A stretch of 64,000 bases of DNA from Phytoactinopolyspora mesophila. GTDB taxonomy: Bacteria > Actinomycetota > Actinomycetes > Jiangellales > Jiangellaceae. Positions 24,004 through 50,347 of this stretch are shown in pieces. The position numbers were made by a program, and so were the translations under genes. The DNA is taken from the NCBI RefSeq assembly GCF_010122465.1, contig NZ_WLZY01000014.1, positions 1 to 64,000 on the forward strand, written 5' to 3'. Within the stretch, counting starts at the first letter, position 1; every line of letters begins with the position of its first letter. The notes below the pieces were generated by a model that was not told the DNA's origin, made no database searches, and worked only from the letters and a program-made list of their open reading frames with translations.

Positions 24004-24091
24004 ATGATCATGTTTGGTGGGTTTCCTCGTGCGTCAACAGGCCTGCGGGCATGGTGAGGCACCGGAAAACCCACCAAACATGATCATCTAG
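24004..24091. repeat. 88-bp palindromic intergenic element, copy 1
   Basis: An 88-bp unit with perfect 21-bp inverted arms (24004-24024 and 24068-24088, starting ATGATCATGTTTGG) and an internal region that is conserved in copy 2 (25647-25734) with 8 differences in 88 bases. Because the non-pairing centre is conserved too, this is a dispersed repeat and not only a local hairpin. It sits between the convergent MMPL and aldo-keto reductase genes and could also end transcription from both sides. Confidence 0.8.
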
Positions 24092-24132: not shown

Positions 24133-25008
24133 TCAGCGGCTGATGCTGTCGAGTTCGGCCACGTCCTCCGCGGACAGCGTGAGTCCGGCGCCGGCGATGT
24201 TCTCGCGCAGGTGCGCGACTTTGGAGGTGCCCGGAATGAGCAGGATGTTCGCCGAACGCTGCAAAAGCCAGGCCAGGGCGACGGCCATCGGCGTTGCGCC
24301 CAGGCGGGCCGCCACCCTGGAGAGCTCCGCGGACTGCAGCGGGGTGAAACCGCCCAGAGGGAAGAACGGGACATAGGCGATGCCGTCGTCGGCGAGCTTG
24401 TCGATGAGGGGGTCGTCGTGACGGTGGGCGAGGTTGTACATGTTCTGCACGCACACGATCGGCGCGGTCTCGCGTGCTTGCGCGACCTGTTCGGCGGTGA
24501 CGTTGCTGACCCCGAGGTGGCGGATCAGGCCCTGCTGCTGGAGCTCGGCGAGGGTCTCGAACGCCTCCGTGATCGAACCGGGCTGAGGCCCGGTCGCGTC
24601 GCCCATGCGCATGTTCACCAGATCGAGAGTCTCTACTCCGAGGGATTCGAGGTTCTCGCGGACCTGTCGACGTAGGTCCTCAGGTCGGCGCTCCGTGGGC
24701 CAGCCACCTTCGGCGTTCCGGTTTGCTCCGACCTTGGTGGCAATGAGTAGGGACTCCGGATAAGGGTGTAATGCTTCCCGGATCAGCTGGTTGGTGATCC
24801 GGGGCCCGTAGGCATCGCTGGTGTCGATGTGGGTGATCCCTTGAGTGATGGCCTCGCGCAGCACGGCGATCGCGCCGTCACGGTCCGCCGGAGATCCCAT
24901 AACCCAGGGGCCCGCGAGCTGCATGGCGCCGTATCCGAACCGGGTGACAGTCCGGTCGCCGAGGCGCCAGGTGCCGCCGAGAAGGGTGGAGGAAGCAGTG
25001 GTCATCAT
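24133..25008 (-). CDS. aldo/keto reductase
   Basis: A 291-residue (beta/alpha)8 NADPH-dependent oxidoreductase. Visible are the catalytic DTSDAYG (Asp and Tyr), the lysine in LLIATKVG and the coenzyme loop region LIPGTSKVAHLRENIAGAG. The position usually filled by the fourth tetrad residue, histidine, reads LDLVNMRMGD, with Arg in place of His, as in a known subgroup of bacterial enzymes. The ATG at 25008 has AAAGG upstream. The 5' end faces the divergent HxlR regulator, which probably controls it. The substrate is unknown. Confidence 0.85.
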   Translation of the reverse strand: MMTTASSTLLGGTWRLGDRTVTRFGYGAMQLAGPWVMGSPADRDGAIAVLREAITQGITHIDTSDAYGPRITNQLIREALHPYPESLLIATKVGANRNAEGGWPTERRPEDLRRQVRENLESLGVETLDLVNMRMGDATGPQPGSITEAFETLAELQQQGLIRHLGVSNVTAEQVAQARETAPIVCVQNMYNLAHRHDDPLIDKLADDGIAYVPFFPLGGFTPLQSAELSRVAARLGATPMAVALAWLLQRSANILLIPGTSKVAHLRENIAGAGLTLSAEDVAELDSISR

Positions 25009-25138
25009 CTTGCCTTTCGTCATGCGAGCCAGCGGTGGCGTTTAGGTCGCCGCTCCACCAGTATTGGAGAGCAACTTCCTCACGGGAAGTAGGCACCTTA
25101 GAGTGCGTTACGCCCCGTCTCCCCGAAGGATGATGTCC

Positions 25139-25564
25139 ATGGCGACAACGAACGCGGCTCAGAAGCGAGCCCGTGCCAAAGCCGAATACAACGTGTTTCT
25201 GGCAGTGTGTCCGAGCCGTCAATTGCTCGACAGGCTCTCGGACAAGTGGGTCGTGCTGGTCCTCTGCGCACTCGGTGGCGACGGCGGCGGGAGCCCCGGC
25301 GTGCCGGCTTCGATGCGATACTCGGAGCTTTCGCGTCTGATCGCCGGTGTCAGCCAGAAGATGCTCACCCAGACGCTGCGCTCTTTAGAGCGCGATGGCT
25401 TGGTCACGCGTACCGTCACCCCGACCGTTCCGGTCACCGTCGATTACGCGCTCACTGCGCTCGGTCTCTCGCTTTACCAGACCACCCGGCAGCTCCGGAG
25501 CTGGGCACAAGACCACATGGAAGCCGTCCAGGCGCACCGTGATGAGTACGACGCCGACCACTGA
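25139..25564 (+). CDS. HxlR-family transcriptional regulator
   Basis: A 141-residue winged-helix regulator of the HxlR (MarR-like) family. The core reads LAVCPSRQLLDRLSDKWVVL, RYSELSRLIAGVSQKMLTQTL, RSLERDGLVTRTVTPTVPVT and VDYALTALGLSL. The cysteine in AVCPSR is the residue that senses electrophiles or redox stress in some relatives. The ATG at 25139 has GAAGGA eight bases upstream. It is divergent from the aldo-keto reductase, a common pairing for aldehyde or quinone detoxification. Copy 2 of the 88-bp repeat follows it. Confidence 0.85.
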   Translation: MATTNAAQKRARAKAEYNVFLAVCPSRQLLDRLSDKWVVLVLCALGGDGGGSPGVPASMRYSELSRLIAGVSQKMLTQTLRSLERDGLVTRTVTPTVPVTVDYALTALGLSLYQTTRQLRSWAQDHMEAVQAHRDEYDADH

Positions 25565-25640: not shown

Positions 25641-25737
25641 CCCTAGATGATCATGTTTGGTGGGTTTCCTCGTGCGTCAATAGGTCTGCAGTCATGGTGG
25701 GGCGCGGGTAAACCCACCAAACATGATCATCTAGGGC
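25641..25737. repeat. 88-bp palindromic intergenic element, copy 2
   Basis: The second copy of the element at 24004-24091 (core 25647-25734, 80 of 88 bases identical). Its arms here extend to 27 perfect bases (25641-25667 and 25711-25737) because CCCTAG flanks both sides. It lies between the HxlR gene and the GHL10 gene, so copies 1 and 2 flank the reductase and HxlR pair as direct repeats 1.64 kb apart. Confidence 0.82.
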
Positions 25738-45398: not shown

Positions 45399-46841
45399 AT
45401 GGCTGATGAGCAGCGCGCCGACGTCGCGGTCACCGGGCTGGCCACCATGGGCCGGAATCTGGCTCGCAACCTGGCCCGCAACGGCTATCGAGTTGCCGTC
45501 CACAACCGCAGCGCCCAGCGCACCGACGCCCTGGTCGATGAGTTCGGCAACGAGGGCACCTTCCTTCCGGCGAAGAGCCTGGACGAACTCGTCGCCGCAC
45601 TGGAGCGGCCGCGCCGCGTGATCGTCATGGTGCAGGCCGGCGAGCCCACGGACGCCGTGATCGACCAGCTGAGCTCGTTGCTGGACACCGGTGACGTCAT
45701 CGTCGACGCCGGCAATGCCCACTACGAAGACACCCGGCGGCGCGAGAGCCGGCTTCGCGAGGCAGGCATCAACTTCGTCGGCACCGGCGTCTCCGGGGGC
45801 GAAGAGGGTGCTTTGAACGGCCCCAGCATCATGCCCGGAGGCAGCGAGGAAGCCTACGAGGCCCTGCGGCCGATGTTCGAGAAGATCGCCGCCGACGTTG
45901 ATGGCACACCGTGCTGCGCGTACGTCGGGCCCGACGGTGCCGGGCATTTCGTGAAGATGCTTCACAACGGCATCGAATACGCCGACATGCAGCTCATCGC
46001 TGAGTCGTACGACCTGTTGCGGCAAGGACTCGAGATGTCTCCGGCCGAGGTCGGAGAGGTTTTCACCGGCTGGAACAACGGCGATCTCGAGTCGTTTCTG
46101 GTCGAGATCACCGCCGAGGTGCTTGGCCACGTGGACACGAGTACGGGGCAACCTTTCATCGACGTCGTTCTCGACCAGGCCGGGCAGAAGGGAACCGGGC
46201 GGTGGACCGTGATCTCGGCGCTGGAGCTCGGGGTGCCGGTGAGCGGGATGGCCGAGGCAGTGTTCGCCCGCGGGTTGTCGAGCGATATCGCCCGCCGGGA
46301 AGCGGCCCGAGAGACTTTGCCCGGACCGTCGCCGTTGGCTGCCGTTGAGGACCGCCAGCAGTTCGTGGACGACGTCCGTGACGCCCTGTATGCGTCCAAG
46401 CTCGTCGCGTACGCGCAGGGCTTCGACACCATCCGGGCGGCCAGCGACGAGTACGGCTGGGATGTCGATCTGGGCCAGATGGCCACGATCTGGCGCGGCG
46501 GCTGCATCATCCGGGCGCGTTTTCTCGACCGGGTCCGTGAGGCCTACGATCGCGATCCCGCGCTGCCCTCGCTGCTGGTGGACGACTACTTCCGGCAAGC
46601 GTTGGCCGACGGGCAGGCGGGCTGGCGCCGAGTGGTGTCCACGGCGGCTCAGCTCGGTGTTCCGGCGCCCGGGTTCAGCAGTGCCCTCGCCTACTACGAC
46701 GGGCTGCGGGCGCCGAGGCTGCCTGCCGCGTTGATTCAGGGCCAGCGCGACCTGTTCGGTGCCCACACCTACAAGCGAACCGACCGGCCGGGGACCTTCC
46801 ACGTGGACTGGTCCGGCGACCGCACCGAGCAAGAGCGCTGA
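45399..46841 (+). CDS. gnd: 6-phosphogluconate dehydrogenase, NADP-dependent, decarboxylating
   Basis: A 480-residue dehydrogenase that converts 6-phosphogluconate to ribulose 5-phosphate with NADPH. The nucleotide-binding N-terminus (TGLATMGRNLARNLARNG) is followed by the substrate loop GTGVSGGEEGALNGPSIMPGG and GAGHFVKMLHNGIEY with the catalytic lysine, and the C-terminal GTGRWTVISALELGVPV and RAPRLPAALIQGQRDLFG. The ATG at 45399 has GAGGAG upstream. It acts directly after gluconokinase. The end is near the 127-bp palindromic element. Confidence 0.92.
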   Translation: MADEQRADVAVTGLATMGRNLARNLARNGYRVAVHNRSAQRTDALVDEFGNEGTFLPAKSLDELVAALERPRRVIVMVQAGEPTDAVIDQLSSLLDTGDVIVDAGNAHYEDTRRRESRLREAGINFVGTGVSGGEEGALNGPSIMPGGSEEAYEALRPMFEKIAADVDGTPCCAYVGPDGAGHFVKMLHNGIEYADMQLIAESYDLLRQGLEMSPAEVGEVFTGWNNGDLESFLVEITAEVLGHVDTSTGQPFIDVVLDQAGQKGTGRWTVISALELGVPVSGMAEAVFARGLSSDIARREAARETLPGPSPLAAVEDRQQFVDDVRDALYASKLVAYAQGFDTIRAASDEYGWDVDLGQMATIWRGGCIIRARFLDRVREAYDRDPALPSLLVDDYFRQALADGQAGWRRVVSTAAQLGVPAPGFSSALAYYDGLRAPRLPAALIQGQRDLFGAHTYKRTDRPGTFHVDWSGDRTEQER

Positions 46842-46851
46842 CCCAGTCCGC

Positions 46852-46978
46852 CCCCGTGATCATGAGCGGCTTTCTGCTGTGTATCGGTGATCGTCAGTGC
46901 GCTGTGGTCGTGGGACTGCAACCACAGCGTACTGACGATCACCTAACTCGCAGCGAGAATCCGCTCACGATCACGGGG
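46852..46978. repeat. nested 127-bp palindromic element between gnd and the GH31 gene
   Basis: The outer arms CCCCGTGATCATGAGCGG (46852-46869) and their inverse (46961-46978) match at 17 of 18 positions. The inner 23-base arms (46886-46908 and 46921-46943) match at 22 of 23 and are separated by 12 bases. The right outer arm overlaps the stop codon of the GH31 gene (46971-46973). The element lies between convergent genes. Confidence 0.78.
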
Positions 46979-49211
46979 TGAAGGCGGGGTGTAGCTCGGG
47001 CCACCTCGTGGCGCGGCAGTACACCGGAACCTCCTCGATCGGCACATCCCGGGTCACGACCTTCCCGCCGCTGAGGTGGGCGCCGCTCCAGACGTCGACC
47101 CACTCTCCCGGCGGCACGTATGCGTCCCAGGTCTTCGCGCCAGGTTCTATGACCGGCGCCACCAGGAGGTCGTCGCCCAGCAGGTACTGATGGGGATGCG
47201 ACCACGCCGCTTCGTCGCCGGGATGATCGAAGAACAGTCCACGCATCAGCGGGGGACCCCCGGCGACGGCGCGTGCCGCCTGTTCGGACAGATACGGCAC
47301 CAGCCGCTCACGCAGCTGCGCGTAACGGCGGAAAACCGGGATGACCCGCTCGTCGCCGGTCTGCTCGGCCACGTTCCACGGTGTGCGGTCCCGCCAGGGG
47401 CGGCGGTGGTGGTTGAACTCGGAGTGGTACTGCATGATTGGCATGAAGCACGACGCGGCCGCGGCTCGCAGATACAGCTCGGCGTCGGGCACGTCGCCGG
47501 AGAAACCGGCCAGGTCCCAGCCCCAGTAGACGATTCCGCAGGCCGACGCGGTGATGCCTGCCGTCACGGCGGAACGTAGCCCTTCCCAGGTCGAATCCTC
47601 ATCTCCGGCCCAGAACGCGCCGTGGGCTTGCGAGCCGGTGAATCCGGCGCGGCTGAACGTCACCGGCGCCTTTCCGCAGGATCGCAGCAAATCGCCGTAG
47701 GCGCGGGCATAGTGCACCGGGAAGAGATTGTTGCCGGCGTCGCCGGGGACGGGGCCGTCGGTATCCGCAAGTCCGTGCCGCAGGTCGTGGCCCCAGGCGT
47801 GCTCGCCACCGTCGGTCTTGAACCCGTCGATGCCCAGTTCTTCGACGAGGTAGCGGCGTTTCTCCGTCCACCACGACCGAGCCCGCTCGGAGGCGAGATC
47901 GGGCATCAGCGCGAGCGGGAACCACCAGCCGCGGTTGCGGTACGGCCGGCCGTCGGACTCGGTGACCACCAGACCGTTCTCAACGGCCGCGCGAGCGTCG
48001 GCGGCGAGTTGCCCGGTCGGGTGCGGGCGCATCTTCAGCAGCGGGATCTGCCACAGCAGCACCTTGATGTCCCGGTTGTGCAACTCGTCGACCATGCCCA
48101 CCGGATCTGGCCAGGCGCCGTCGGGCGGGAACCGGAAGTCGGCCAGCCGGTGCGGCGAGCCGTCCTCGTTGACGTCGTACTGCGCGTCGCGGAACGCGGT
48201 GAAGGTGGATTCGTCGCTCCAGGCCTCGATGACGAGCGCACCCACCGGGATGTCGTGCTCGCGGTGGGCGTCCATCTCGGCCATGACTCGCGCTTGCGTG
48301 TTCCATTCGTTTCCACTGGCCCAGAGCCGGAACACCCAGTCCGGTAGAAGTTCCGGGCGCCCGGCATCGTCGAGGAAGGCGTTGAGTATCTCGGTCGGGC
48401 TGCCTTGGTAGATCTCGACGGCGAGTTCCTTGTCGCCACCCAGCTCGGCTTCGATCACCAGCCGGCCGGGCTCTGATGCGGCGACGTCGTACCAGGTGCG
48501 GCGTGACGTGCGGACGTGGAACCCCCAGGAGTGCTCCCCGATCACCATGGCGAACGGCATCGGCAGGTAGGTGCGTCCGTGTGCGCCCTGCTGCTTGTAC
48601 TGCTCGAAGACGACGGCGTCGAGTATCTGGCCGTGCTGGTCGACGTGGTCGTAACGCTCGCCGAACCCGACGACGCGGTCACCCGGGGCCAGCGGCAGGC
48701 TGAACCGGACCCGGCGCGGCCCTTCGGGCCCCACGAGCCACCGCACCCCCTGATGATCATGAACACTTGGTGACCGTATGGGTCCAGAAGTGTTCATGAT
48801 CAAGGAGCCAGCGTCGTCCCGCCACTCGGCCGCGGCCACGTCGTACCAGCGTGTCGTGCGACGACGGCCGTCGTCATAGTGGGCGACGAACCGGTACCGG
48901 TAGGTCACGCCCGCTTTGAGCGCCGGTGTCTGGACCGACCAGAACTGCCGGTCGGCCAGTGATCTGGCTTGCGCGGCTGCCAGGTGCCCGCCGTCGGCCG
49001 TCGTATCGGAGTCTTCGCCGTCGTCCGGCGCGCGCAGGTCCCAGGTCTCGGCCCGTTCGCCGTCCGTCCACTCACATTGCACCGCGTCAACCCCAGCCGA
49101 GACGCGGACCCGCAGCTCACAACTCTCGCCGGCCACCGGCTCGGCGGGCACCCGCTGGTCGCCGGTGGTGGCGTACGGGTGCCCGGAGCCGTACGGGCGA
49201 TGCCGGATCAC
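46971..49211 (-). CDS. glycoside hydrolase family 31 (alpha-glucosidase-type)
   Basis: A 746-residue GH31 enzyme that removes terminal alpha-glucose or alpha-xylose residues. An N-terminal beta-sandwich (about 1-250) is followed by a TIM barrel with the nucleophile in DGFKTDGGEH (D467) and the acid/base in FWAGDEDSTW (D537), and C-terminal sheet domains. The GTG start overlaps the GH15-like gene by four bases (GTGA). Residues 137-153 are encoded by an in-frame palindromic insertion (48754-48802). The predicted cytoplasmic location, with no signal peptide, fits hydrolysis of sugars imported by the adjacent ABC transporter. Confidence 0.87.
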   Translation of the reverse strand: MIRHRPYGSGHPYATTGDQRVPAEPVAGESCELRVRVSAGVDAVQCEWTDGERAETWDLRAPDDGEDSDTTADGGHLAAAQARSLADRQFWSVQTPALKAGVTYRYRFVAHYDDGRRRTTRWYDVAAAEWRDDAGSLIMNTSGPIRSPSVHDHQGVRWLVGPEGPRRVRFSLPLAPGDRVVGFGERYDHVDQHGQILDAVVFEQYKQQGAHGRTYLPMPFAMVIGEHSWGFHVRTSRRTWYDVAASEPGRLVIEAELGGDKELAVEIYQGSPTEILNAFLDDAGRPELLPDWVFRLWASGNEWNTQARVMAEMDAHREHDIPVGALVIEAWSDESTFTAFRDAQYDVNEDGSPHRLADFRFPPDGAWPDPVGMVDELHNRDIKVLLWQIPLLKMRPHPTGQLAADARAAVENGLVVTESDGRPYRNRGWWFPLALMPDLASERARSWWTEKRRYLVEELGIDGFKTDGGEHAWGHDLRHGLADTDGPVPGDAGNNLFPVHYARAYGDLLRSCGKAPVTFSRAGFTGSQAHGAFWAGDEDSTWEGLRSAVTAGITASACGIVYWGWDLAGFSGDVPDAELYLRAAAASCFMPIMQYHSEFNHHRRPWRDRTPWNVAEQTGDERVIPVFRRYAQLRERLVPYLSEQAARAVAGGPPLMRGLFFDHPGDEAAWSHPHQYLLGDDLLVAPVIEPGAKTWDAYVPPGEWVDVWSGAHLSGGKVVTRDVPIEEVPVYCRATRWPELHPAFTP
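48754..48802. repeat. palindromic element inserted in frame in the GH31 gene
   Basis: TGATCATGAACACTT (48754-48768) is repeated in perfect inverse at 48788-48802 with a 19-base centre. It shares the TGATCATG core of the intergenic elements. The reading frame passes straight through, adding about 17 residues in a variable loop of the N-terminal domain. Confidence 0.75.
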
Positions 49212-50347
49212 GACGCAGCCCCAGCGCTGCCGTTGCCGGCCACGCCCAGTTCGGTGGCGAGGACGAGATACATTCCGTGCGACCACAACAGCGGCGTCGC
49301 GACCGTGCCCCAGCGGTCGATCCATTCCTGGCGGTAGTCCGGCGCGAGTAGGTGATGGTCCACCTGTTCAGGCAGTTCGCCGTCGTCGGTTGCCTGCTCC
49401 GCGACCCAGCGCAAGCACTCCAGAGCCGCCTCCCGGCGGCCGGCGACGGCGTGGTTCCACCCGAGGAACGCGGTCAGCAGCGGCCACTGCCCACCGCCGT
49501 AGAACGTGTCCGCGGCGTAGCGGTGCACGCCTCCGTTCACACACAGCTGGTCCTCGACCGCCCGTACCGTGGCTTCGGCGGTCGCACTGGTGCGTGACAC
49601 CAGCCCGAACGGTTCCACACAGGCCAGCAGGCTGGCGTCGACATCGGTCGTGCCGATCCACTTCGTCAGGTGTCCGTCCGCGACCCCCTCGGCGGTGAGC
49701 GAGCCGATGCCGTCGAGTGCCTCGGCCGCGGCGGCCCGCTCGGCGTCGCTCAGCGCGTCCATCAGGGCTGGATTGCTGGTCGCCGCCCGTAGGCCCGCGT
49801 GGATGGAGCCGAGCGTCGACAAGTGCCGGTGCTCGTCGTGCTCCTCCCACCAGTCGTAACAGGGCCGATCCCAGAAAGCGTTCAGGTAACGGACCGCGGT
49901 GGCGGTGCCCTTCTGTATATAGGCGTCGTCGGTTCCGGGTGCCTCTCCGTGCCGTCGTAGGTGTTCGCTGACGGCCCATAGCCAGGTCCCGTAGCCGTCG
50001 AGCTGGAAGTCCCACCACGGATCGCTGCCGAGCCCACCGTCGAACGTGTACCGGGTCGGCAGCAGCTCCGCCGCGGGAACATGCTCGCCCCGTTCTGCCC
50101 GGGCGATCAGGCCGTCCACGTGCCCGGTACGGTCGGACAGCACCCGGGCGCACCATGTGTGAAACGCCCCGGCGCTGGCCGCGTCCCCGTACCGGCTCAC
50201 CCCCTCGGCGATGAACGCGCCGTCACGGAACCAGCAATAGCCCCGGTAGGCGCTGAACGCCGGACTGGCCGGGTAGGCGCCCGACGGTGTCTGGTTGCTG
50301 GTGATCACGCGGTGGCTCCGTTGAGCCAGCGCCTCGAGGTCGATCAA
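49208..50347 (-). CDS. glycoside hydrolase family 15-like protein
   Basis: A 379-residue (alpha/alpha)6-barrel protein of the glucoamylase (GH15) group. Typical parts are YRGYCWFRDGAFIAEGVSRY, the DGGLGSDPWWDFQLDGYGTW segment and GGVHRYAADTFYGGGQWPLLTAFL with FLGWNHAVAG. It should release glucose from alpha-linked oligosaccharides, possibly isomalto-type, given the neighbours. It is shorter than most GH15 enzymes because it lacks the N-terminal sandwich. The TTG start is preceded by AGGAGA six bases away. It is translated with the GH31 gene by a four-base overlap. It has no signal peptide, so it acts inside the cell. Confidence 0.82.
   Translation of the reverse strand: MIDLEALAQRSHRVITSNQTPSGAYPASPAFSAYRGYCWFRDGAFIAEGVSRYGDAASAGAFHTWCARVLSDRTGHVDGLIARAERGEHVPAAELLPTRYTFDGGLGSDPWWDFQLDGYGTWLWAVSEHLRRHGEAPGTDDAYIQKGTATAVRYLNAFWDRPCYDWWEEHDEHRHLSTLGSIHAGLRAATSNPALMDALSDAERAAAAEALDGIGSLTAEGVADGHLTKWIGTTDVDASLLACVEPFGLVSRTSATAEATVRAVEDQLCVNGGVHRYAADTFYGGGQWPLLTAFLGWNHAVAGRREAALECLRWVAEQATDDGELPEQVDHHLLAPDYRQEWIDRWGTVATPLLWSHGMYLVLATELGVAGNGSAGAAS

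Follow-up and report, generated by a model that had tools for sequence, protein, structure and literature searches.

Palindromic repeats that encode protein are known mainly from Rickettsia and Wolbachia and from some proteobacterial REPs. In the genome of the soil actinobacterium Phytoactinopolyspora mesophila, a short palindrome was found to lie inside a GH31 gene, which raises the question of how an element of this kind came to occupy a coding sequence and what it did to the protein. The gene lies in a stretch of 64,000 nucleotides (contig NZ_WLZY01000014.1, positions 1 to 64,000), referred to here as the window, from a Phytoactinopolyspora-like genome of the family Jiangellaceae.

The GH31 gene and its palindrome

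The GH31 reading frame encoded 746 amino acids from a GTG start at 49211, or 784 from an ATG start (Table 1). Its Pfam domain set (PF21568, PF13802, PF01055, PF21365) was complete, and the domain order was AIMA-like N domain, mutarotase-like domain, TIM barrel and C domain. A PDB search found the solved 1,3-alpha-isomaltosidase Kfla1895 (5x3i) with an E value of 1.7e-300, and Foldseek gave a TM score of 0.90 against the same structure. With its AIMA-like N domain, its barrel and a close solved relative, the product is a predicted GH31 1,3-alpha-isomaltosidase-like enzyme. The closest congener by this gene was P. limicola, with a protein identity of 79-80%.

The arms of the palindrome, TGATCATGAACACTT (48754-48768) and AAGTGTTCATGATCA (48788-48802), were perfect reverse complements. 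Among the outer 24 pairs, mismatches were confined to positions 16, 17, 18, 23 and 24, and the centre was partly paired. When the window was randomized ten times by a first-order Markov model, no 15-nt inverted repeat with a loop of up to 40 nt occurred. The element was AT-rich for its host, with a GC fraction of 0.45 vs 0.65 for the genome, and an Rfam search of 46500-49400 gave zero matches to known structured RNAs. The open frame through the palindrome encoded LIMNTSGPIRSPSVHDHQ, which makes up residues 137-154 of the protein as counted from the GTG, and bases at the edges of the neighbouring codons (S136 and G155) were also derived from the element. The first-pass annotation had held that the reading frame was undisturbed, and this was borne out: the frame was open, the GH31 domains were complete, and the protein flanks were EWRDDAG before the palindrome and GVRWLVGPEG after it. 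We infer from the intact gene that the element loop is translated.

The consensus element has an in-frame TGA where the GH31 copy reads GGA. Fifteen of the 48 copies in the genome were open in any frame, nearly always in the same frame as in GH31. The lost TGA was rejected as proof of selection, since the internal TGA was missing from 24% of half-sites over all copies, non-coding ones included; a change found in about a quarter of them permits selection and does not prove it.

Table 1. Positions of the GH31 gene and of palindromes in the window
Feature	Position	Strand	Remarks
GH31 gene	46971..49211	-	746 aa from GTG; 1,3-alpha-isomaltosidase / cycloalternan-degrading-enzyme-like
49-bp palindrome core, subfamily TGATCATGAACACTnnnTGACCnnATnnGGTCAnnnAGTGTTCATGATCA	48754..48802	.	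perfect 15-nt arms; family-length copy
Probable full element with outer CC..GG	48749..48805	-	57 bp; outer CCnnA...TnnGG in alignment; codon listing
Second palindrome, 117 bp, TGATCATG-footed	46857..46973	.	between convergent GH31 and 6-phosphogluconate dehydrogenase-like genes
82-bp palindrome, other subfamily (TGATCATGTTTGGTGGG...)	24005..24086	.	8 bp past a gene stop codon
82-bp palindrome, near-identical second copy	25648..25729	.	

The repeat family

The annotation's description of a perfect 15-bp inverted repeat with a family core in coding sequence agreed with the genome-wide count, in which the half-site TGATCATGAACA occurred 104 times and its reversed control 0 times. Forty-eight full copies of a family of about 50 were located, and in every one the outer feet stood exactly 49 bp apart. 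The consensus was TGATCATGAACACTnnnTGACCnnATnnGGTCAnnnAGTGTTCATGATCA, usually extended to CCnnA...TnnGG, and the foot CCnATGATCATG stood on both sides of nearly all copies. The full element measured 57 bp in GH31 vs usually 59 bp, its right foot being 2 nt shorter than that of most copies. Since the whole element was palindromic, terminal inverted repeats were present. Covariation between paired arm positions exceeded that of 500 shuffles and was much stronger than that of slid controls, and two-sided changes were common at column pairs 4-56 and 20-40. A chance palindrome in an ordinary loop would suit a loop that is naturally variable in length, but the recurrence of the 49-bp pattern at about 50 places in the genome, with none in the control, refutes that reading and leaves it a negligible probability.

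The family was found behind genes. According to a simple gene caller based on codon usage, a gene 3' end lay no more than 25 bp from 45 of the other 47 copies, and 19 of these copies had one on each side. At 25 gene ends the TGA in the TGATCATG foot was itself the stop codon, while non-element TGATCA sites in the window served as a stop in 2 of 28 cases. A coding location, described earlier as rare, was indeed limited to one of the 48 copies.

The subfamily pattern had 45 matches in the P. mesophila genome, three in one further Jiangellaceae genome and none in four congeners. The loose pattern TGATCATG-N(13-73)-CATGATCA was present in 21 of 22 Jiangellaceae genomes, numbering 1-194 copies per genome and differing in its interior from lineage to lineage, and also in scattered other Actinomycetes; the reversed control was nearly always 0. 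The RAYT or Y1 transposase (PF01797) was found in none of the 22 Jiangellaceae genomes and in five of 14 control genomes. A RAYT-driven REPIN was rejected on the absence of PF01797 from the P. mesophila genome and family, and spread by viruses was rejected after a search of IMG/VR, which gave zero matches to the repeat.

In scattered other Actinomycete families, TGATCATG-footed palindromes with other interiors were seen in bursts of up to 60 copies (G109, G216, G114, G168).

Replacement of a protein loop

The first-pass annotation had concluded that the element adds about 17 residues to the protein, and here the comparison with homologues gave a different result. The loop between the EWRDDAG-region motif and VRWL had 20 residues in P. 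mesophila and 18 in P. limicola; among 96 homologues it had 9-18 residues in all but four, mostly 11-15 and chiefly 13-14, and the Jiangella loops had 13-17, usually 13-15. The net change was about +2 to +7 residues relative to homologues. Simple addition would give a loop of about 32-37 residues, so native loop residues have been lost, at once or later, and the native loop was replaced, the element now encoding 18-19 of the 20 loop residues. In the AlphaFold model, residues 136-141 formed a strand, followed by a low-confidence loop and a second strand at 154-161; the model and Pfam together placed the element loop where the N-terminal beta-sandwich domain gives way to the mutarotase-like domain. 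The palindromic element was present in none of the 96 homologues, so it is not the ordinary conserved loop that the annotation had named as a possible refutation. On these comparisons, a member of the repeat family has indeed replaced a loop of the GH31 protein, with the frame kept.

The left edge of the replacement coincided with a sequence found in the relative. The TGATC of the left foot was matched by TGATC at the same codons of the P. limicola gene (CTG ATC GTG GAC in P. limicola vs TTG ATC ATG AAC in P. mesophila), a coincidence that is suggestive of a left junction on a native foot, the match being short and not significant alone. Alternatively, the palindrome might have entered GH31 before the two species split and have decayed in P. 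limicola to the 18-aa loop with a TGATCGTG remnant. Both loops exceed the usual 13-15 aa of Jiangella, and the common TGATC agrees with such a history, but the P. limicola loop resembled no element beyond 11 nt, its alignment to the element was matched by about 20% of shuffles, and the coding frame was otherwise ordinary high-GC sequence. The P. limicola loop was rejected as a decayed element because it did no better than shuffles, and an entry before the split is considered unlikely.

The hairpin could instead be a selected regulatory element, such as an attenuator or internal terminator. The coding strand folded into a very stable RNA hairpin (-34.7 kcal/mol, z = -6.4), and the other copies at gene ends were terminator-like, hairpin and position alone fitting an intrinsic terminator. 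However, no T-run followed the copies and the GH31 hairpin had no U-tract, the five arm mismatches weaken its inner stem, none of the 96 homologues had a hairpin at that place, and an internal terminator would destroy an enzyme whose domains are intact. A regulatory role is thus very improbable.

P. halotolerans, with 38 residues, and a Propionibacteriaceae MAG, with 44, had long versions of the same GH31 loop (L047/L128, L129). The P. halotolerans loop DNA was non-palindromic by eye, so insertions from other sources are tolerated at the site.

Turnover between species

Thirty-two copies were compared with P. limicola through the orthologue of a flanking gene. By reading of the alignments, a palindrome was present in both species at five orthologous sites, where the arms were 95% identical and the interiors 16%; interiors within either species were 65-69% identical. 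The clearest same-arm pair (L202/L250) had a CCCCA left flank and a GCGGAAGGAG right flank in common, and the common imperfect edge in L202 seems to speak against insertion twice, independently, at the same hot spot. At four further sites (L001, L011, L192, L199), the P. limicola palindrome belonged to another subfamily and shared the TGATC[A/G]T foot. Most remaining sites, for example L030, had no such palindrome in P. limicola, and some had a different hairpin. The palindrome was likewise missing from P. limicola at convergent pairs with both neighbours conserved (L176, L177, L198), and the reverse case, a P. limicola palindrome missing from P. mesophila, was found at G003:C2:83705. A few decayed P. 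mesophila copies (L171, L190, L204) had an interior like the P. limicola type and may be remnants of an earlier repeat population that the present one displaced.

On the aligned sites, the family is one that turns over by gain, by loss and by apparent in-place exchange of hairpin bodies. The earlier claim that the element moves is therefore upheld by the orthologous intergenic sites, where palindromes are present in one species and absent from the other or have interiors specific to the species; the GH31 copy, on which that claim had been based, is weak proof alone, because the comparison took in no clean empty site.

Origin and mechanism

We consider it probable that a copy of a species-specific, REP-like repeat replaced a surface loop of the GH31 protein and that the repeat spreads by foot-to-foot copying of the hairpin. 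The repeat normally sits directly behind stop codons, and one copy would have arrived in GH31 in the P. mesophila lineage, taking the place of the surface loop with the frame kept. The hairpin body would be copied from locus to locus at the short common foot TGATC[A/G]TG, whether by template switching, by ectopic repair once the hairpin has been cleaved, or by some recombinase. In GH31, copying would have started at a TGATC already in the gene, still there in P. limicola at the same codons, and the copy would have survived because it was open in the one fitting frame and the loop tolerated a change in length. If the present population displaced an older type, decayed copies with a P. limicola-like interior would be expected. 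Several points stand against this explanation: the TGATC match in P. limicola is short, and about 20% of shuffles align as well as that loop does with the element; the feet, at 14-15 bp, are short for ordinary homologous recombination; the search with PF01797 did not find a mover enzyme; and the internal TGA has been lost from non-coding copies too.

The main competing explanation is a clean, MITE-like insertion by a transposase, with the native codons lost later through in-frame deletions. It would account for the fixed length, for the species-limited amplification and for the presence or absence of whole palindromes at orthologous gene ends. Several observations argue against it, 1) no target duplication was evident in the P. 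limicola pairs, whose orthologous sites are strongly diverged, 2) no longer element with the same ends and a transposase was seen among the unpaired half-sites examined, 3) the Y1 transposase was absent, 4) the junction falls on a native TGATC and 5) the same-place replacement of interiors elsewhere needs no new insertion. On balance a clean insertion is rather less likely than not to be right. The unpaired half-sites examined, which covered part of the TGATCATG sites, were decayed single palindromes, some with a P. limicola-like interior, or lone half-sites, none of them seen flanking a long element, and an autonomous parent element was provisionally rejected on this basis.

Foot-to-foot copying might also be extended to the whole TGATCATG-footed class, which would then spread without RAYT by foot-based copying of bodies and homogenise its copies in place, the GH31 case being a chance TGATC that was captured and a loop rewritten. 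We put this generalization forward tentatively and regard it as doubtful.

Relation to known palindromic repeats

The closest precedents for the coding insertion are the palindromic elements of Rickettsia (RPE) and Wolbachia (WPE). Nineteen reading frames of this kind have been reported, as has an active enzyme, Gmk, that carries an insert (PMC2229807). The likeness lies in a palindrome placed in frame in a conserved, intact protein gene. The P. mesophila element is set apart from the RPEs by their descriptions: it measures 49-59 bp, whereas RPEs measure 105-146 bp, and it has another sequence pattern and occurs in other bacteria of another phylum. A typical RPE family would recur in many coding sequences and lengthen the protein by its full size, while the P. 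mesophila element is coding in one of 48 copies and replaced a native loop.

In other respects the family resembles the GTAG/CGTC REPs and REPINs, which are also short, high-copy, species-specific palindromes adjoining gene 3' ends, rarely lie between divergent genes, supply stop codons from their ends and have occasional coding copies of 20-30 aa (PMC3733652, PMC3116915). However, the P. mesophila element has neither a GTAG nor a CGTC tag and instead has the TGATCATG foot on both sides; it is a single long palindrome and not two REPs facing each other; and REPs have a cognate RAYT, whereas PF01797 was in 0 of 22 Jiangellaceae genomes. Between related strains, newer REP variants have been proposed to replace older ones in part, in an 'orthoswitch' (PMC3686654), and evolution of REPs by gene conversion is attributed to Higgins 1988, as cited in PMC3733652. 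The orthoswitch is tied to RAYT genes; in P. mesophila the replacement is seen at single non-RAYT loci with outer arms and flanks kept. Correia/NEMIS, ERIC and RU repeats are small, non-autonomous and MITE-like, and lie between and sometimes in frame inside genes; target duplications and TA ends are described for most of them (PMC2229807), and neither feature could be made out in the P. mesophila element.

The element is thus a REP-like repeat with one RPE-like coding insertion, an event of a type already known (PMC2229807, PMC3733652). What is new is the repeat class, the host group, the absence of RAYT and the pattern of replacement. No description of the TGATCATG motif or of the Jiangella palindromes was found among the matches listed in the literature searched, which was covered in part.

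REP-like repeats can accordingly rewrite proteins as well as spacer DNA, and since the actinomycete enzyme has a solved close relative (5x3i), the effect of the loop on activity is directly testable. The species comparison provides natural before and after pairs for a RAYT-free repeat that swaps its interior at fixed positions, so that genome comparison becomes a test of an old question, namely the way in which REP-like repeats are copied and homogenised.

Other palindromes in the window

The 117-bp palindrome supplied the GH31 stop codon, the TGA at 46971-46973 being part of its TGATC foot. At the same convergent junction, P. limicola had only a 25-bp hairpin, with the base CCCGTGATC..GATCACGGG as in the 117-bp palindrome.

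The 1.6-kb segment flanked by the two 82-bp palindromes carried an aldo/keto-reductase-like gene at 24133-25023 and, at 25130-25564, a small one for an HxlR-like regulator. Different genes occupy the syntenic position in P. limicola, and the segment may be a palindrome-bounded cassette. Elsewhere in the genome (L023-L027, G000:C1:1280609-1282612), three 49-bp copies were clustered in 2 kb, and one of the three immediately followed a gene for an HxlR-like regulator, an arrangement that echoes the cassette in the window.
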